Assembly: GCA_024403555.1 (NCBI GenBank)
Contig: JAKSRP010000009.1
Location: 1-50,032, forward strand
DNA from: Lachnospiraceae bacterium
GTDB taxonomy: Bacteria; Bacillota; Clostridia; Lachnospirales; Lachnospiraceae
Direction of reading: 5' to 3'
Length of the DNA stretch: 50,032 nt
Shown here: positions 12,639 through 20,076 of the stretch, one piece after another
How positions within the stretch are numbered: the stretch's first letter is position 1
Layout: each line of letters begins with the position of its first letter
Made by a program: the position numbers and the translations under genes
Notes under the pieces: generated by a model
Databases searched by the model: none
What the model was told of the DNA's origin: nothing
What the model saw: the letters and a program-made list of their open reading frames with translations, nothing else

Positions 12639-13835
12639 TTAATACTTCCAGTAAATAATAATCTTATCCATACTCTTTTCATCAATATAAGAGCATGTTA
12701 CTTTGCCTTTGATATGATATTTTCTCTGAATTCGGTCCATTCCATCCTGGGTAAAATCTTCTAAAATATCATCTTTTGCGTCATAATAGGCATCATCATT
12801 TGCAAATTTGAACGTAGAATTTGACGATTTCTGATCAATATCATAACAGATCAGATTCCAGATTTCATTCCTGTCATAGTTCGTAAAATATCTCTGATTG
12901 ACACAATAATAATACCAGTCTAAACTATCGCATTTTGGATGGTTAAATACGGAATTATCCGCATTATGCGTTCTGCCAATCAATTCATCGTTGCAGAGCA
13001 TATAATCATACGTGATGCCATCTGTAGTTGTGCCATTGCCATCATAGTTTGGATCACCCCAGGTAGCATCCAAATGATAAAACTTTCCGTTACAAAGTAC
13101 AATGTTCCACGCATGTGCACCACGTCCGGTTGAGGATTCAGCTGTTCCAGATACGTATGTACAGAAGATATCCTGCTTTTGAAGCAAATACTGAATTGCT
13201 TTTGAATAACCAGCGCAAACTGATTTCTTGCCAATTAATACGCTGTCGATATACTGATTATTCGGTGCATCCTCCTCATAATCTGTGTTCTTTATCACAA
13301 AGCGATAGGTTGCCAAAATTTTCTGATAATCATTCTTACCCTCGTTGTCTTTCGCAATTTCCTTCGCTATTTCTTCCATTTTTGCAGACTTTTCGCTGAT
13401 TTCATTCTTCGCATACACATACTCAGGTTCAAGAGTCATACTAAATCCGATTTTCAGATAATAAAGTTTGTAGCCTCCACGACACCAGAAAATCTCCGGA
13501 TGATCATAAAGCACCGCATACCAGATTTTCTCTACCTCATCACTGTCTCTCGACTTAATTTTAATTGATTCCTCTAAGTCCGTAAGTCCCTGATACAAAT
13601 CATCATAGATGCTTTGCTCCTTATTCGTAAGCTGAGCTCTGTAATAATAAGTTTCAGCTTTTTCATTCCCCGCTTCCGGCTCTGCTCTCTGTTCTGTCGT
13701 TGCCTCTTTTCCAACTTCAATATTCTTTATGGTATTGTATCCGCCTGTCATAAAGCAGTAAATACCCCCGACAAGCAATAGAAGAATGAGAATGCTAAAA
13801 AGACATCCCCCACAGCCTGAACTTTTTCTTTCCAT
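12639..13835 (-). CDS. Membrane-anchored transglutaminase-like protein
   Basis: A 398-residue protein with a short basic, cysteine- and glycine-rich start (MERKSSGCGGC) and one membrane segment at about residues 11-30, leaving the rest outside the cell. The core has the transglutaminase/protease-like triad order: Cys in GKKSVCAGYSKA, His in GRGAHAWNIV, Asp in YHLDATWGDP. The flanks are not recognised. Such proteins can be peptidases, crosslinkers or cell-wall-associated; the substrate is unknown. The start follows TTAGGAGT. It is the last gene of the minus-strand run behind the pseudouridine synthase (12-bp gap), so it may share the kinase operon's transcript. Confidence 0.82.
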   Translation of the reverse strand: MERKSSGCGGCLFSILILLLLVGGIYCFMTGGYNTIKNIEVGKEATTEQRAEPEAGNEKAETYYYRAQLTNKEQSIYDDLYQGLTDLEESIKIKSRDSDEVEKIWYAVLYDHPEIFWCRGGYKLYYLKIGFSMTLEPEYVYAKNEISEKSAKMEEIAKEIAKDNEGKNDYQKILATYRFVIKNTDYEEDAPNNQYIDSVLIGKKSVCAGYSKAIQYLLQKQDIFCTYVSGTAESSTGRGAHAWNIVLCNGKFYHLDATWGDPNYDGNGTTTDGITYDYMLCNDELIGRTHNADNSVFNHPKCDSLDWYYYCVNQRYFTNYDRNEIWNLICYDIDQKSSNSTFKFANDDAYYDAKDDILEDFTQDGMDRIQRKYHIKGKVTCSYIDEKSMDKIIIYWKY

Positions 13836-13847
13836 AAATTAATACTC

Positions 13848-14735
13848 CTAATCTGCCATCAATCTCTTCATATCCTCTGGGAGCTCTGACACAAACTCCA
13901 TCTGCTCCTTTGTTATTGGATGCTCAAATCCAATTTTATAACAATGCAGCGCCTGACGGGAAATATCCCGAAAGTCCGGATTATACAAAAAATCACCAGG
14001 AAGAGGGTGTCCGATATGCTTCATATGAACACGAATTTGATGTGTCCTGCCTGTTTCTAATACAATTTTAAGAAGTGAATACTTATCTCCACTTTTTATT
14101 GTTTCATAATGCGTAATGGCATCTTTCCCTTTTATCAGATCTATCTGACGCTCAATAATCGATCCCTCTACACGTCCAATTGGTGCATTAATTATTCCCA
14201 TGCCTTTTACACATCCACTGACAACTGCCATATATTCCTTATGAAACAATCCATTCTTCACCGCTTTGGACATAATTGCTCCAGCAAGCATATGTTTAGC
14301 AAGAATAACAACACCACTTGTATCTCGATCTAAACGATTAAGGCAGCGAAAAACATATTTTATTCCCTGTCTATTGTAATACCCCATCACAGAATTCGCT
14401 AAAGTTCCATAATGATGATTAATCGACGGATGAATCGCCATTCCTGCCGGTTTATCCACTACAAGGATATCTTCATCCTCATAAAGGATCTTAAGTGGTA
14501 GATTCTCTGCCTCAATATTTTCTGAGGTTGCCGTTTCAAAAATTGTCACTATCAGTGTAGTGCCTTCTTTTAAACATGTTCCTGCTGAAACACAATTCCC
14601 ATTAATAGAAAATGCTCCCTCTTGCTTTTTAAGTGTAGAGATACTTTTTCTTGTGTAGCCCTGCTGTCGTAAAAAATATGCAATTGTCATTCCATTTTCA
14701 CTAGGTGTAATTTCATAATTAACAATTCGTTTCAT
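13848..14735 (-). CDS. RluA-family 23S rRNA/tRNA pseudouridine synthase
   Basis: A 295-residue RluA-type enzyme. An N-terminal S4-like RNA-binding segment (FLRQQGYTRKSISTLKKQEG) is followed by the catalytic domain with ILVVDKPAGMAIHPS and the active-site aspartate in NRLDRDTSGVVILAK, then GRTHQIRVHMKHIGHPLPGD. It isomerises specific uridines in rRNA or tRNA; the target site cannot be assigned. It lies 14 bp after the fourth sensor gene without a clear Shine-Dalgarno, so translational coupling or an operon tail position is likely. Confidence 0.93.
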   Translation of the reverse strand: MKRIVNYEITPSENGMTIAYFLRQQGYTRKSISTLKKQEGAFSINGNCVSAGTCLKEGTTLIVTIFETATSENIEAENLPLKILYEDEDILVVDKPAGMAIHPSINHHYGTLANSVMGYYNRQGIKYVFRCLNRLDRDTSGVVILAKHMLAGAIMSKAVKNGLFHKEYMAVVSGCVKGMGIINAPIGRVEGSIIERQIDLIKGKDAITHYETIKSGDKYSLLKIVLETGRTHQIRVHMKHIGHPLPGDFLYNPDFRDISRQALHCYKIGFEHPITKEQMEFVSELPEDMKRLMAD

Positions 14736-14749
14736 AACATAAATTTAGC

Positions 14750-15631
14750 TTATACTATCTGTTCTTCAAAGGCTTGTGTAACCTTGCCCTTTAGGTCAGT
14801 GAGCATGGTATTCGCCTGCTCTTTGGTCATCTCATCTTCTCCCAAAACAAGTATCGTCTGCAGATAATTATTCATATCATGTCTGATATCTCGAAGCTTC
14901 TCATTCTGTTTATTCGCAAGCTGATAGGATTCATAATGATAATCCTGTTCTTTTTGCATTTCTTCCATGAGTGCTTCCTGTTCCTTCTTAGCAATATGAC
15001 TACGAAGAATCTCAAGGCCTAGATAATATTGAAGAATAATACTTATCCCTGATACTCCACTTAATGTTGCAAAATGACTTCTGATACCAAGCGGATCTAG
15101 TAACACAACACATTTAAGAATCCCCATTTCAACTATACCCAATGCAAAAAAGACAAGAAATACTGGCATGTATTCTGGAGTTTTCTTTCGATAACAGATC
15201 ATTTCTGCAAGAACTACGGCCAAATATAGAACCATAGCATATAGAATTCTTGTCATGATTAATGTTGGATTCACTGTAAGAAAAAAAGATATCTTTTCAA
15301 AATAGAACGGGAACACAACAATCATAGTAAAGGGATCAAGTATGATGATTGCAAAATAACAAGCTAACGCTTTACCCATTCTCACACAAAAGGATTCTTC
15401 AGAAACAAAAAACATCACAATAGCCATGCTCAGTATTCCGAATATAATCTTAACACTCGCAACTTGTGGCAACAAATAATTCATTCCCATTGAAACGCTA
15501 TATATGGAAAGGAAGTAAAAAAGGGCTGTCTTATTCTGAGAATATTTTGATTTTGTAAAAAGTGTAATAAATTGCGCCATCAGATAAGCATGAGAAACAG
15601 CCATAATACCATTTGCAATAATCAATTCCAT
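14750..15631 (-). CDS. Membrane sensor with a histidine phosphoacceptor helix, no ATPase domain (sensor 4)
   Basis: 293 residues. Six or seven membrane segments occupy about residues 1-205, as in the AgrC/ComD sensor layout. A coiled coil beginning AKKEQEALMEEMQKEQDYHY then leads into the GHKL-kinase H-box IRHDMNNYLQTILVLGED. The protein ends about 30 residues later with no HATPase domain. Its last residues (TDLKGKVTQAFEEQIV) differ from those of its three tandem paralogues, and it is the most diverged at the C-terminus. It is probably phosphorylated in trans by the membrane ATPase encoded upstream; that is inference. The ATG follows GGGAGAAG. It is the last of the four sensor genes and precedes the pseudouridine synthase. 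Confidence 0.75.
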   Translation of the reverse strand: MELIIANGIMAVSHAYLMAQFITLFTKSKYSQNKTALFYFLSIYSVSMGMNYLLPQVASVKIIFGILSMAIVMFFVSEESFCVRMGKALACYFAIIILDPFTMIVVFPFYFEKISFFLTVNPTLIMTRILYAMVLYLAVVLAEMICYRKKTPEYMPVFLVFFALGIVEMGILKCVVLLDPLGIRSHFATLSGVSGISIILQYYLGLEILRSHIAKKEQEALMEEMQKEQDYHYESYQLANKQNEKLRDIRHDMNNYLQTILVLGEDEMTKEQANTMLTDLKGKVTQAFEEQIV

Positions 15632-15662
15632 TGCTTTACTTCTCCCTTCTCATACATTCCTA

Positions 15663-16529
15663 TCAAGAACCAAACGCAGTTTGAACCTTTCTTTTTAACT
15701 CTTCTATCATAGAGCCCGCCTGCTCTTTGGTCATCTCATCTTCTCCCAGAGTAAGAATCGTCTGTAAATAATTATTCATATCATGTCTGATATCTCGAAG
15801 CTTCTCATTCTGTTTATTCGCAAGCTGATAAGATTCATAATGATAATCCTGCTCTTTTTGCATTTCTTCCATGAGTGCTTCCTGTTCCTTCTTAGCAATA
15901 TGACTGCGAAGGATCTCAAGTCCAAGATAATATTGAAGTATAATACTAATTCCTGACACTCCACTTAAGGTTGCAAAATGACTTTTGATTCCAAGTGGAT
16001 CTAATAACACAACGCATTTAAGAATACCCATTTCAAGAATACCTAATACCAAAAAGACAACAAATACTGGCATATATTCCAGTGCCTTCTTTTGATAACA
16101 TAGCATCTCTGCAACGACCACTACTAAATATAGAACCATAGCACATAGAATTCTTGTCATGATCAATGTTGGATTTATTGTAAGAAAAAAAGAAATCTTT
16201 TCAAAATAGAATGGAAATACAATAAGACTAATAAACGGATCAAGTATGACAATCCCCCAATAACAGCCTAATGCTTTACCTATTTTGACCCAAAAGTATT
16301 CTTCAGAAACAAAAAGAGTCACAATAATCGGACTCAATAATGAAATAAACACTCTGACAATGACAGAACTCACAAAATTAGCGCCAACCGAAGCAATATA
16401 TAAAGATAGCCAATACAAAAGTACTGTTTTATTTCGTGAATATTTCGATTTTACAAACAATGTGATGAACTCAGCGAATAACAGTGTCTGAGTCAAGCCA
16501 ATCATCCCATTTGCTATAATCAATTCCAT
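15663..16529 (-). CDS. Membrane sensor with a histidine phosphoacceptor helix, no ATPase domain (sensor 3)
   Basis: 288 residues with the same plan as its neighbours: start MELIIANGM, six or seven membrane segments, the EILRSHIAKKEQEALMEEM linker, H-box IRHDMNNYLQ with His near residue 249, and the end KVQTAFGS. The last ~80 codons and the intergenic bases beyond are practically identical at DNA level to sensor 1 (17496-17735). The membrane half is clearly diverged from sensor 1 but close to sensor 4 (for example FPFYFEKISFFLT). This mosaic pattern suggests recent gene conversion. The clean, shared stop position argues against a broken full kinase. Confidence 0.75.
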   Translation of the reverse strand: MELIIANGMIGLTQTLLFAEFITLFVKSKYSRNKTVLLYWLSLYIASVGANFVSSVIVRVFISLLSPIIVTLFVSEEYFWVKIGKALGCYWGIVILDPFISLIVFPFYFEKISFFLTINPTLIMTRILCAMVLYLVVVVAEMLCYQKKALEYMPVFVVFLVLGILEMGILKCVVLLDPLGIKSHFATLSGVSGISIILQYYLGLEILRSHIAKKEQEALMEEMQKEQDYHYESYQLANKQNEKLRDIRHDMNNYLQTILTLGEDEMTKEQAGSMIEELKRKVQTAFGS

Positions 16530-16568
16530 AACTATACTTCTCCCTTGTCCATATGTTCCTATAAAAAG

Positions 16569-16596
16569 CGTGATTCACAATCCCCTATGTATCACG
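16569..16596 (-). terminator. Weak hairpin between sensors 2 and 3
   Basis: CGTGAT (16596-16591 on the minus strand) and ATCACG (16574-16569) flank a 16-nt loop and are followed by CTTTTTA. The stem overlaps the stop codon of sensor 2. This gap (62 bp) is twice that of the other sensor-sensor gaps, so it may lower expression of downstream sensors. Confidence 0.35.
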
Positions 16597-17464
16597 AACC
16601 AAAAGCAGTATCAACTTTTCCTTTTAACTCTTCTATCATAGAGCCCGCCTGCTCTTTGGTCATCTCATCTTCTCCCAGAGTAAGAATCGTCTGTAAATAA
16701 TTATTCATATCATGTCTGATATCTCGAAGCTTCTCATTCTGTTTATTCGCAAGCTGATAGGATTCATAATGATAATCCTGTTCTTTTTGCATTTCTTCCA
16801 TGAGTGCGTCCTGTTCCTTCTTTGCGATATGACTACGAAGAATCTCAAGCCCAAGATAATATTGAAGTATAATACTGATGCCTGACACCCCACTTAACGT
16901 CACAAAATGCCTGCTGACACCAACAGAATCTAATAACACAACACACTTAAAAATACCCATTTCGAGTATACCCAACGCTAAAAACACCAGGAATACTGGC
17001 ATATATTCTGGTGCCTTCTTATGATAATATATCATTTCAACAACCACCATAAACAGATAGAAAAACATCCCATAAATTACTCTTGACATAATCAACCTTG
17101 GAGTCAATTCAAAAGTAAGTACCAAATTATCAAAATAGAACGGAAGAAGAATAAAAAGAATGCAGATTTCTAAACTAACACCTGTAAAATGACCAATAAT
17201 CCCTTTTCCTATTTTGACAAAAAGTTTCTCTTTTGAAATGAAAATAGTTGCAAGAGACAATCCAATTATTCCTACCAAAAACTTAATGACAGGAATGGCT
17301 GGTGTCAGATAATTAATACCTGTGGAATAGGTAAATATAGAAACCCAAAATAAGAGTGCTGTCTTATTTTGAGAATATTTTGATTTAACTATAAGACTCA
17401 TGAATTGAGCCAGCAAAAAAGTATGCGATAATCCTACAAGTCCATTTGCAATAATCAATTCCAT
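16592..17464 (-). CDS. Membrane sensor with a histidine phosphoacceptor helix, no ATPase domain (sensor 2)
   Basis: 290 residues, same architecture: start MELIIANGLVG, multi-TM half, coiled-coil linker KEQDALMEEMQKEQDYHYES, H-box IRHDMNNYLQTILTLGED, end KVDTAFGS. The membrane half resembles sensor 1 in places (STGINYLTP, KCVVLLDS-GVSRHF) and is otherwise distinct. The conserved C-terminal cassette contrasts with the variable N-terminal half, as expected if the four proteins sense different cues but use the same phosphotransfer partners. No ATP-binding N, G1 or G2 box is present. The next start codon is 62 bp downstream. Confidence 0.75.
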   Translation of the reverse strand: MELIIANGLVGLSHTFLLAQFMSLIVKSKYSQNKTALLFWVSIFTYSTGINYLTPAIPVIKFLVGIIGLSLATIFISKEKLFVKIGKGIIGHFTGVSLEICILFILLPFYFDNLVLTFELTPRLIMSRVIYGMFFYLFMVVVEMIYYHKKAPEYMPVFLVFLALGILEMGIFKCVVLLDSVGVSRHFVTLSGVSGISIILQYYLGLEILRSHIAKKEQDALMEEMQKEQDYHYESYQLANKQNEKLRDIRHDMNNYLQTILTLGEDEMTKEQAGSMIEELKGKVDTAFGS

Positions 17465-17495
17465 TAATATACTTCTCCCTTCTCATACGTTCCTA

Positions 17496-18368
17496 TCAAG
17501 AACCAAACGCAGTTTGAACCTTTCTTTTTAACTCTTCTATCATAGAGCCCGCCTGCTCTTTGGTCATCTCATCTTCTCCCAGAGTAAGAATCGTCTGTAA
17601 ATAATTATTCATATCATGTCTGATATCTCGAAGCTTCTCATTCTGTTTATTCGCAAGCTGATAAGATTCATAATGATAATCCTGCTCTTTTTGCATTTCT
17701 TCCATGAGTGCTTCCTGTTCCTTCTTAGCAATATGGCTACGAAGAATCTCAAGGCAAAGATAATATTGAAAAATAGTGATCATCCCTGACACAACAGCCA
17801 ACAACACAAAATGTCTGCTAACACCAGAAGAATCTAACAACACAACACATTTAAAGATGCCTAGTTCAAGAATCCCCAAAGCAAAAAAAGCACGAAATAC
17901 CGGCATGTATTCTGGAGTTTTCTTTCGATAGCGTAACATCTCTGCAAAGACAACGAACACATAAAAAAGCATGCCATAAAGAACTCTAACCATAATCATC
18001 ATTGGAGTAATTTCAAAAGAAGGCACATAACCATCGAAATAGAATGGAGCCATGACAATAATCATAACAATCTCAAAAAAACTAAGTAGAAAATAAAAAA
18101 CAATTGCTTTTAATACACTCACGAAAAGTGGACCTTCAAGAACCCTACAATTCACAATGCTCAAGCAAACAACCCCAACCACAATCTTGATACCAGCACT
18201 ATCTGGAGTCAGATAATTAATTCCCGTAGAATAGATAAACACAGCCATCCAATAAAAAAGCGTTGTTTTATGTTGAGAATATTTGGACTTTGAAAAGAGA
18301 GTAAAAAACTGTGCCATTAGATAGGTCTGAGAAAGTCCTGTAATAATATTTGCTACAATCAATTCCAT
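17496..18368 (-). CDS. Membrane sensor with a histidine phosphoacceptor helix, no ATPase domain (sensor 1)
   Basis: 290 residues: start MELIVANIITG, six or seven predicted membrane segments to about residue 205, coiled coil, then H-box IRHDMNNYLQTIL (His near 251) and the end KVQTAFGS. It is the first sensor gene and starts 3 bp after the stop of the membrane ATPase gene, a spacing that implies translational coupling and suggests the products work together. It resembles a GHKL kinase (AgrC type) cut off directly after its dimerisation/phosphoacceptor helices, or a membrane-bound Spo0B-like phosphotransferase. No signal peptide or AgrB/AgrD gene is nearby, so the signal is unknown. Confidence 0.75.
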   Translation of the reverse strand: MELIVANIITGLSQTYLMAQFFTLFSKSKYSQHKTTLFYWMAVFIYSTGINYLTPDSAGIKIVVGVVCLSIVNCRVLEGPLFVSVLKAIVFYFLLSFFEIVMIIVMAPFYFDGYVPSFEITPMMIMVRVLYGMLFYVFVVFAEMLRYRKKTPEYMPVFRAFFALGILELGIFKCVVLLDSSGVSRHFVLLAVVSGMITIFQYYLCLEILRSHIAKKEQEALMEEMQKEQDYHYESYQLANKQNEKLRDIRHDMNNYLQTILTLGEDEMTKEQAGSMIEELKRKVQTAFGS

Positions 18369-18371
18369 CTG

Positions 18372-19259
18372 TTACATCTCCTCACCAACATCTGTCATAT
18401 CTGGAACGAAAATAGTCGCAATAACCTGGTTTTCTTTTTCTTTCAATTCAAAATATCCCTGATACTTTTCTACAATACTCTGTATATTTTTAATTCCTCT
18501 TCCGTGAAGCTTTTCATTATTTTTCGTCGTAACCGGTGTACCCTTTTCATCTCTCTTAATCAATTCTTTACTTGAATTCGTCACTTTCGTTACGATATAA
18601 TCACCTTTTTTACCGATTTTCACATACACTTTTGGATCATCTTCCACCATCTTTGCAGCATCAATAGCATTATCTAATACATTCATTAAAACACTGCATT
18701 TATCAATGTTCTTCATTGGGAAGAAGTCAATCTCATCTACATGAATATCCAAAGAAACACCTTCTTGCTTTGCTTCCTTCTTTTTAAGCAACAGAATCGT
18801 ATTCAAAATTCTGTCGTAGCTGTAAAAATCCATTGTGAGGTCTTTCAATTCACTTTGAAATTTATCACAAAACTGCTTTGTCTTCTCGCTTCGATGCTCA
18901 AAATCTGTATGCAAAGAATCCTCTAAAGATTCAATTTCATTAAGAAGATGCTGTTTAATCTGCGCAATCTCTTCTTCCTTATTCAAAACCTGTTTTTCGT
19001 AGTTTTCTTTTAACCAGGTTGTCATCAATTCATTATGAATAGCAAGCTGCTCTTCTTTCTGTTTCATAATTCGTTTCATGTAAAAAATAATAAGCAAATA
19101 GCAAATGACAATCAAAATGCTTAATACAATCAGGCCAATAAATATTCTGCTATGGTCTTTATTCATACTCTGATATACAAAGAATCCGTAATAAATCCCC
19201 TGAATAATCAATGCAATTGAAAAAATAACAACTAAAACATTCTCTTTTTTTATACTCAT
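18372..19259 (-). CDS. Membrane GHKL-type ATPase protein lacking a recognisable H-box
   Basis: 295 residues. There are two membrane segments (about 8-30 and 39-60), a long charged coiled coil (about 62-115), a region matching the second kinase helix (YDRILNTILLLKKKEAKQEG), and then an HATPase_c domain. The domain has an N-box LMNVLDNAIDAA (Asn near 187), VTNSS, and a G2-like GRGIKNIQSIVEKYQGYF. Where a GHKL kinase normally shows RHDxxN there is only EHRSEKTKQF, with no RHD motif. It could be an ATPase that phosphorylates the histidine of the four sensors in trans, or an unusual kinase with a divergent acceptor. Its ATG overlaps the response-regulator stop (ATGA type). Confidence 0.8.
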   Translation of the reverse strand: MSIKKENVLVVIFSIALIIQGIYYGFFVYQSMNKDHSRIFIGLIVLSILIVICYLLIIFYMKRIMKQKEEQLAIHNELMTTWLKENYEKQVLNKEEEIAQIKQHLLNEIESLEDSLHTDFEHRSEKTKQFCDKFQSELKDLTMDFYSYDRILNTILLLKKKEAKQEGVSLDIHVDEIDFFPMKNIDKCSVLMNVLDNAIDAAKMVEDDPKVYVKIGKKGDYIVTKVTNSSKELIKRDEKGTPVTTKNNEKLHGRGIKNIQSIVEKYQGYFELKEKENQVIATIFVPDMTDVGEEM

Positions 19260-19969
19260 AACTGTTCTCCAAAAAACTTAAATACTTTTTCTTTCGTTTC
19301 TGTAAGCTTCGTACGACTAATTGGAACCACCGTTCCATCAAGTAACACTAGTTCATTCTTTACGATCATTCGAACATGATTCATATTGACTAAAAAACTC
19401 TTATGGCACCATACAAATGGATATCCTATAAGGTCATCATTGAGTTCTTTCAGTTTCCCATAATATTCAAATGCTTCGTTTATCGTATGCAGCAGAATCT
19501 TCCTTCCATGACTTTCTGCATAAATAATTTCGTCCACAAATACTCTTTTCAAATTACCATTAATGGAGAAGCAAATAGACTTCTTCTTACTTTCCTGTAA
19601 TCTCAAAACTGCTTTATCCATGGCACGGAAAAACTTCTCCTTTGTACATGGTTTTAAAAGGTAATAGATTGGATCCGCTTCAAAGGAATCTTCCACATAT
19701 TCTGTATAACCAGAAATAAAGATTGTAAAACAGTTGGAATTAATCTTTCGTAGTTTTTTCACAATCTCAATTCCATTGCCATCTTCTAACTTAATATCCA
19801 TCAAAACGATGACCTGTTCTTCTTGCGCCACATCCTCCATAAACCAGAGTACATCTTTTCCATGTAAAAAGCTGTGAATTTCTACCACTTCTTCCTTCAT
19901 ATACTCTTTGGTCCATGATTCTAATGTCTGTGCCATCAAACCATCATCGTCACAAATAATCACTTTCAT
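19256..19969 (-). CDS. LytTR-family response regulator (AgrA/LytR type)
   Basis: 237 residues from ATG 19969. A GTG at 19978 is in frame, but it lies inside the Shine-Dalgarno GGGTGA. The receiver domain has the acidic pocket CDDD, phosphoacceptor Asp in LMDIKLEDGNG (about residue 58) and the conserved lysine in YYLLKPCTKEKF. The C-terminus (about 135-235) is a LytTR DNA-binding domain: VFVDEIIYAESHGRK, WCHKSFLVNMNHVR, VVPISRTKLTE. It is the first gene of the split-kinase operon and presumably the final phosphoacceptor, activating genes or its own operon. The orphan LytTR protein at 36183-36560 is similar in the DNA-binding domain. Confidence 0.93.
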   Translation of the reverse strand: MKVIICDDDGLMAQTLESWTKEYMKEEVVEIHSFLHGKDVLWFMEDVAQEEQVIVLMDIKLEDGNGIEIVKKLRKINSNCFTIFISGYTEYVEDSFEADPIYYLLKPCTKEKFFRAMDKAVLRLQESKKKSICFSINGNLKRVFVDEIIYAESHGRKILLHTINEAFEYYGKLKELNDDLIGYPFVWCHKSFLVNMNHVRMIVKNELVLLDGTVVPISRTKLTETKEKVFKFFGEQL

Positions 19970-19996
19970 AATTTTCACCCTGTTTCCAATTTTTTC

Positions 19997-20037: not shown

Positions 20038-20076
20038 GAAAAAAGCCATCGCGTACTTGCAATGGCTTAATTTTTT
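20038..20076. terminator. Terminator downstream of icd
   Basis: AAGCCAT (20043-20049) and ATGGCTT (20062-20068) form a stem with A/T runs on both sides. On the minus strand it ends the icd transcript just before the promoter of the response regulator. Confidence 0.8.

Follow-up and report, generated by a model that had tools for sequence, protein, structure and literature searches.

How can a histidine kinase work when the histidine that accepts the phosphoryl group and the ATPase domain that would supply it are encoded by different genes? This question is raised by an operon in a 50,032-nucleotide stretch of DNA from a Lachnospiraceae bacterium (GCA_024403555.1, contig JAKSRP010000009.1; hereafter the window), which encodes a LytTR response regulator, a GHKL ATPase without an acceptor histidine (A) and four membrane sensors that carry an acceptor histidine and no ATPase domain (S1 to S4). 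Histidine kinases are normally single chains, and a new input therefore means a whole added kinase with its crosstalk. Judging from sequence, we think it likely that this locus encodes a GHKL histidine kinase of AgrC type that is split into several phosphoacceptor sensors and a single His-less ATPase subunit common to them all, with phosphorylation in trans followed by transfer to the regulator. The genes in question, in the order of the operon, are:

19256..19978, minus strand: LytTR response regulator, 240 residues, GTG start, first gene of the operon (open reading frame call and Pfam)
18372..19259, minus strand: A, GHKL ATPase with two transmembrane segments and no acceptor His, 295 residues
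17496..18368, minus strand: S1, phosphoacceptor sensor with several transmembrane segments and the motif RHDMNNYLQ, without an ATPase domain, 290 residues
16592..17464, minus strand: S2, same anatomy as S1, 290 residues
15663..16529, minus strand: S3, same anatomy as S1, 288 residues
14750..15631, minus strand: S4, same anatomy as S1, 293 residues

The regulator heads the operon, as an initial annotation of this DNA had stated, and matches both a receiver domain (Response_reg, 48.4 bits) and a LytTR domain (73 bits) in Pfam. Its receiver Asp, which that annotation called Asp58, has this number when counted from an ATG three codons downstream of the GTG and is residue 61 when counted from the GTG itself. 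The regulator stop and the A start overlap (ATGA), and 3 bp separate A from S1.

All four S proteins carry RHDMNNYLQT. The annotation had described sensors of 288–293 residues that stop cleanly about 30 residues after the motif; the lengths, the motif and the clean stop stand, and the tail is in fact 39–42 residues past the His. The chain ends before the segment that in ordinary kinases leads to the ATPase domain. No ATP-binding family was detected by Pfam in any of the four at an E-value of 0.1, in agreement with the claim that the sensors lack ATP-binding boxes. Three of them match the DHp family SPOB_a below threshold (16.0–16.4 bits, cut-off 28.1) and the fourth matches no family. Simple hydropathy, a crude measure, places 4–6 transmembrane segments in each. 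We rejected the idea that the S genes are frameshift remnants of complete kinases: the gaps among them, 31–62 bp, are too short to have held an ATPase domain, and their ratio of nonsynonymous to synonymous divergence (dN/dS) is below 1. Chance is an unlikely source of the arrangement, because four copies share one boundary and the arrangement recurs elsewhere.

A has the complementary anatomy. It matches HATPase_c_5/GHKL (PF14501) at 71.1 bits against a cut-off of 22, has an N box (NVLDNA) and a G box (HGRGI), and carries two transmembrane segments by the same crude hydropathy. Aligned with full kinases, its acceptor column holds Gln103, so the earlier description of a 295-residue protein with N and G2 boxes and no RHD acceptor is accurate. 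Of the features of an AgrC-type GHKL kinase, the ATPase domain with N and G boxes and the adjacent LytTR regulator are present, and the RH[DE]xxN motif is absent from the ATPase chain; RHDMNN sits on S instead. S and A both match a single known kinase, the AgrC module (PDB 6e52). A profile of six A proteins and one His-bearing kinase (from genome G396) aligned to residues 20–225 of this structure (E 5.6e-8), its consensus being other than His where AgrC has RHD, and a profile of 11 S proteins aligned to residues 22–72 (E 3.1e-5) with RHD on RHD. Across A proteins the spacing between ATPase domain and former acceptor site varies by no more than a few residues, and since this distance is conserved A may still form DHp-like helices.

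The same division is found in a second genome of the genus, G003, where regulator, A and a single S follow in the order seen in the window and acceptor His and ATPase domain again lie on separate, jointly encoded proteins. Identities between the two loci are 44% (regulator), 30% (A) and 28% (S), and the G003 sensor ends 40 residues past its His. S is present in two of the five genomes of the genus. The expectation under which the proposal would fail, that homologues are consistently full-length kinases, does not hold for this orthologue, although G396, discussed below, pairs an S with a His-bearing kinase, and there is a more distant array in G183 (L128:327-8922) in which five full-length, unsplit GHKL kinases with RHDINNQILA accompany one regulator.

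To obtain a base rate we searched A against 145 related genomes, 97 of which had a match, and read the 30 best loci, window and G003 included (some rows are fragments). The acceptor column holds His in 27 of these 30 proteins; the exceptions are the A proteins of the window and G003 and one protein of G030. Eight short GHKL proteins for which a wider flank was fetched (L052-L059, six of them among the 30) all have the His motif, and none of the eight has an S within reach. The G030 protein (L126:254-1597), 448 residues with Asp in the acceptor column, lies at a contig start, so that any partner would be off the contig.

Split loci recur well beyond the genus. We searched 397 genomes of the family with window-type, G304-type and mixed sensor profiles, 381 genomes of the class with the mixed profile, and genome contig collections with a window-type and then a G170-type sensor profile, taking as candidates short open frames among the matches listed; all locus counts are therefore lower bounds. 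Among those matches, at least 14 genomes of the family sample have S-bearing loci, and at least 17 loci, the window included, pair a sensor that has only the H box with a nearby His-less GHKL protein. Sensor and ATPase genes standing together, which the initial annotation had proposed to look for in relatives, are found repeatedly. By number of sensors these loci are:

Four S each: the window and G304
Two S each: G308, G451, G281, G170:C1, G328 and G164 (in which the second S is a 164-residue frame)
One S each: G003, G353, RGIG7671, SRR14411345, G708 and G510
One small S: G299 (with two A), G209 and SUG845

Two of these, G708 and G510, are from other families within the class. A joint alignment shows the acceptor His in 27 of 28 control kinases and in 0 of 18 A proteins, whose column holds Q in ten, D in three, R in two, and N, A and S in one each. 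The N box is kept in all 18 and the G box (GxG) in 16. The S proteins show the reciprocal pattern, with the His kept in 33 of 33 from 20 S-bearing loci, a figure partly built in because the search profiles include the H box. A regulator with intact receiver and LytTR domains is found in 15 of the 17 split loci (14 of 16 besides the window). In the contig collections the window-type profile found no relative; the G170-type profile gave nine loci, three already seen (G170, G299, G209), three new split loci (L213, L214, L215) and three His-bearing kinases (L217-L219).

Some candidates for S were discarded. Those in G405, G330 and G040:C33 are kinases with both H box and ATPase domain, that in G456 has an in-frame stop and that in G550 is cut by a contig end. 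The G799 candidate had no match to the models used, and the script found no S in G396:C32. The G541 candidate is one kinase read in two adjacent frames (L204:7182-8473), 312 residues with RHDMRN and 116 residues of ATPase domain, cut between DHp and ATPase; it is either a frameshift or another kind of split. G299 (L169:104-3951) has the reverse multiplicity, with one 148-residue H-box protein, two His-less GHKL membrane proteins (447 and 459 residues) and one LytTR regulator.

We also asked how closely loss of the His and presence of S go together. Filtering by length and score, which the G353 and G510 proteins failed, left 140 distinct GHKL proteins in the loci collected; 122 have the His and 18 lack it. 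An S lies no more than 2.5 kb from sixteen of the 18; of the other two, one is a fusion of S and A and one, the G030 protein, shows none. The script flagged S near three of the 122 His-bearing proteins. Two flags were judged artefacts, L088_1135 (its neighbour is a 437-residue kinase cut by the locus edge) and L205_255 (a kinase of its own next to the G708 locus); the one that stands is G396. Fisher's test on the raw table gives 3.3e-16, from rows that are related, with flanks that are often short and with many His-bearing rows found via the sensor profiles; for these reasons the 27 of 28 control kinases are the fairer comparison.

The fusion bears most directly on whether the two proteins belong together. 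In G170:C3 a single uninterrupted frame of 589 residues, adjoining a LytTR regulator, encodes six transmembrane segments and RHDFNNQLAT, followed by two transmembrane segments, a His-less stretch and a GHKL domain. The acceptor column of its A part holds Glu. The layout is that of an S followed by a two-transmembrane A like that of the window, and this fusion, one case from a metagenome assembly, is the best non-experimental evidence that S and A may act as one unit. It also bears on the idea that a different GHKL kinase from elsewhere in the genome phosphorylates S, with A a structural or inhibitory partner. The window genome, 86% complete, does have two further GHKL matches (C56 and C4) that could play this part. 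However, the fusion joins S to a His-less A and not to another kinase, S, A and the regulator are encoded together in the window and in other split loci, and a purely structural partner would not need the N and G boxes that the A proteins keep. We regard this explanation as very improbable. The initial proposal, that one set of kinase parts is distributed over separate chains, is thus upheld by the reciprocal loss in the 18 A proteins, the truncated sensor of G003 and the natural fusion.

On a tree built from the catalytic domain, with 140 rows and 158 columns, we counted at least 10 changes between His and non-His (9 on a quick tree), and the His-less state therefore probably arose repeatedly. 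As regain of the His seems unlikely, several losses are the likeliest history. The A proteins of the window and G003 form one clade (support 100/97), and those of G170, G299, RGIG7671, SUG845 and G209 another (99/86). Elsewhere His-less proteins group with other kinases: G304 A with the His-bearing kinases of G396 and G456 (97/85), G451 A with the His-bearing kinase of G245 (99/81), and G328 A with kinases of G726 (96/61); the remaining placements are weak. G396, with a full kinase and a truncated copy, looks like an intermediate stage. The sister row of window A in this tree, at weak support (83/47), is a 240-residue GHKL kinase of G349 without a membrane part; its locus (L090:1337-12886) has a regulator and lies in a cluster that encodes a 1594-residue ATPase of FtsK/SpoIIIE type and proteins that by eye resemble kinases and phosphatases.

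The sensor copies have a history of their own. S1–S3 are 62–75% identical to S4, and the last 100 residues, starting 60 before the His, are 82–97% identical between pairs. In all six window pairs dN/dS is about 0.25–0.44 in the sensor half. Synonymous divergence (dS) falls from 0.81–1.11 there to 0.15–0.60 in the C-terminal module, which suggests gene conversion of this module, as if it had been homogenised to fit a shared partner. The same drop is seen in five of six G304 pairs and in the single pair of G451; in the S pairs of G281, G308 and G328 dS is near or past saturation. Diverged sensor halves, more similar C-termini and likely gene conversion are also what one would see if the S copies were silent cassettes, kept as a reserve of alternative sensor domains for recombination into a full kinase. 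The window operon, however, holds no full kinase to receive a cassette, and A has a different, two-transmembrane front. Each S has its own start, preceded by a purine-rich stretch (by eye), and a dN/dS below 1, and several loci have a single S or have S on both sides of A. We rejected silent cassettes on these grounds and consider them most improbable.

Several observations weigh against a split kinase with a shared ATPase. Window A itself has two histidines near the acceptor site, His104 directly after the acceptor column and His117, which is common to the window and G003. A could thus be a self-sufficient kinase, with S proteins acting as modulators, phosphatases or decoys. In G003, however, Asn-Asp is aligned to Gln103-His104 of the window, so that His104 is not conserved and its use was rejected; His117, 14 residues beyond the acceptor column, is not seen in the other five alignment rows. 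No A of the 18 has His in the column itself, and S proteins keep an acceptor motif that a decoy would not need. Self-sufficiency of A is in our estimate improbable. Other difficulties lie in individual loci. The S of G396 adjoins a full kinase that keeps its His; the S of G449 has neither A nor a LytTR regulator in the 16 kb read; and beside the two S of G675 no A was recognised (an 891-residue protein there has a weak, 11.8-bit match). The regulator frame of G708 has LytTR only, without a receiver, and no intact regulator frame was seen in G353 in the locus as read; that of G675 reads as two frames (receiver and LytTR). Among the A proteins, that of G353 is disturbed in frame, that of SRR14411345 is truncated at a contig start, with a His in the position just before the acceptor column, that of G451 has a G box without its first Gly, and that of G209 starts with a flagellin N-terminus (PF00669) in one frame with its His-less GHKL domain (L170:4342-5631). 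The dS pattern is not universal, with G170 and one of six G304 pairs showing the opposite, support in the tree is uneven, and an independent-pairs test had 2 pairs on supported branches and 10 on all.

In SUG845 (L215:5004-6401) a flagellin-like gene, recognised by eye, lies between S and A. The flagellin in SUG845 and G209 could indicate a link to motility or, in G209, a deletion or misassembly.

How a split kinase of this kind would signal can be sketched as follows. With its diverged membrane domain each S would sense a signal of its own, and it would present the acceptor His on a DHp-like stub. A would contribute a two-transmembrane anchor, a His-less DHp-like stretch and an intact ATP-binding domain, and could join an S, in the simplest case in an S:A heterodimer held by the helix bundle. 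The ATPase domain of A would then phosphorylate the S His in trans, and phospho-S would donate to the Asp of the adjacent LytTR regulator. We infer the S:A contact, the trans phosphorylation and the transfer to the regulator, together with the existence of particular signals and target genes.

The surroundings of the operon offer a candidate for its output. The neighbouring features are:

20043..20068, minus strand: terminator-like hairpin, 10-pair stem and T run, pattern match only
13848..14735, minus strand: RluA-type pseudouridine synthase, 14 bp past S4, the next gene on the same strand
12639..13835, minus strand: transglutaminase-like protein with an N-terminal hydrophobic stretch

The hairpin lies between an isocitrate dehydrogenase gene and the regulator gene and is likely to mark the upstream boundary of the operon. 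The RluA-type gene is possibly co-transcribed with S4, and a function of its product in the signalling system is unlikely. A homologue of the transglutaminase-like protein (41% identity; L049:10210-11457) is encoded immediately upstream of the regulator in G003, and the gene thus adjoins the split kinase in both loci, on opposite sides. As a neighbour common to both it is a possible output of the system. A search for pairs of LytTR sites matching a simple consensus gave no hit upstream of the regulator or of the transglutaminase gene, within the stretches scanned in the window and G003; across the whole window the same consensus gave five matches, one of them inside the isocitrate dehydrogenase gene.

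Three further loci, in G004 (L050:4698-7559), G032 (L051:4995-7802) and G040 (L054:6349-9146), divide the parts differently. Each has a LytTR-type regulator, a 243–262-residue GHKL kinase that keeps RHDL, and a 408–464-residue membrane protein that resembles a degenerate kinase. The latter may be a pseudokinase sensor that acts through an active kinase encoded separately.

Division of a histidine kinase over two proteins has precedents. In Rhodobacter sphaeroides neither CheA3 nor CheA4 autophosphorylates alone and a mixture phosphorylates CheA3 (PMC3591291); as in the window, an ATPase protein without an acceptor domain is paired with an acceptor protein without an ATPase. Those proteins are chemotaxis kinases built from P1-P5 domains with one acceptor per ATPase, whereas the acceptors described here are membrane sensors, often in tandem, of GHKL/AgrC type and with a LytTR regulator. 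None of the CheA domains (HPt P1, P3, P4, CheW-like P5) was found by Pfam, which gave GHKL/HATPase on A and at most a weak SPOB_a on S. Hik36-Hik43 (PilL-N/PilL-C) of Synechocystis is likewise a kinase divided over two genes that acts with a regulator, but it is a split CheA homologue and a single pair only (PMC7656254). Proteins with HisKA and no HATPase (1556 of 42417, 711 of these with a phosphatase motif) have been proposed to be split kinases (PMC3591291). They too are predicted acceptor-only proteins, but of HisKA and not GHKL type, and paired His-less ATPases are not reported for them in the available part of that paper.

AgrC/AgrA resembles the window system in its sensor with several transmembrane segments and its LytTR partner, and S and A profiles both match AgrC; the difference is that AgrC holds acceptor and ATPase in one chain, where the window has separate proteins and several sensors. 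Spo0B, a DHp-like acceptor without working catalysis, is a soluble relay between response regulators. Three of the four S have a weak, sub-threshold match to SPOB_a; S differs in being a membrane sensor encoded next to an ATPase subunit, and the operon has one regulator. The initial annotation had named Spo0B as the nearest precedent, a place that now falls to the split CheA3/CheA4 (PMC3591291). Experimental tests of trans phosphorylation pair a His-to-Gln with an ATP-site mutant; for MtrB, H305Q and N419D did not complement, and MtrB works in cis (PMC5956149). The window resembles such a pairing made by evolution, with Gln in A and no ATPase domain in S. A literature search found no split GHKL kinase or ATPase-sharing sensors among the titles and abstract openings of the matches listed, with subscription journals thinly covered, and the available part of a phosphorelay review (PMC12189002) has nothing of this kind. 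Split kinases as such are thus known; the GHKL type, the many sensors per ATPase and the recurrence are new here.

Taken together, we lean towards the view that the modular two-component systems of these loci form an as yet undescribed class in Clostridia: GHKL kinases that are obligately hetero-complementary and would have evolved several times as a kinase was duplicated, sensor copies were truncated after DHp and the remaining ATPase copy lost its His. Competing sensors would share one limiting ATPase and sum into one regulator, with G299 as the reverse form, in which one small acceptor serves two His-less kinases. For annotation, a GHKL match alone can hide a kinase unable to phosphorylate itself, and S-type sensors escape the family models tried here (Pfam). 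Modelling of CheA3/CheA4 indicates that splitting a kinase can give ultrasensitivity and bistability (PMC3591291). If our reading is true, acceptor sensors that plug into a common ATPase are wired differently from one-chain kinases, with inputs competing for one engine. The repeated origin of this arrangement would offer natural replicates for finding the contacts by which an ATPase accepts a particular sensor, and the parts themselves may be a source of mix-and-match signalling components.

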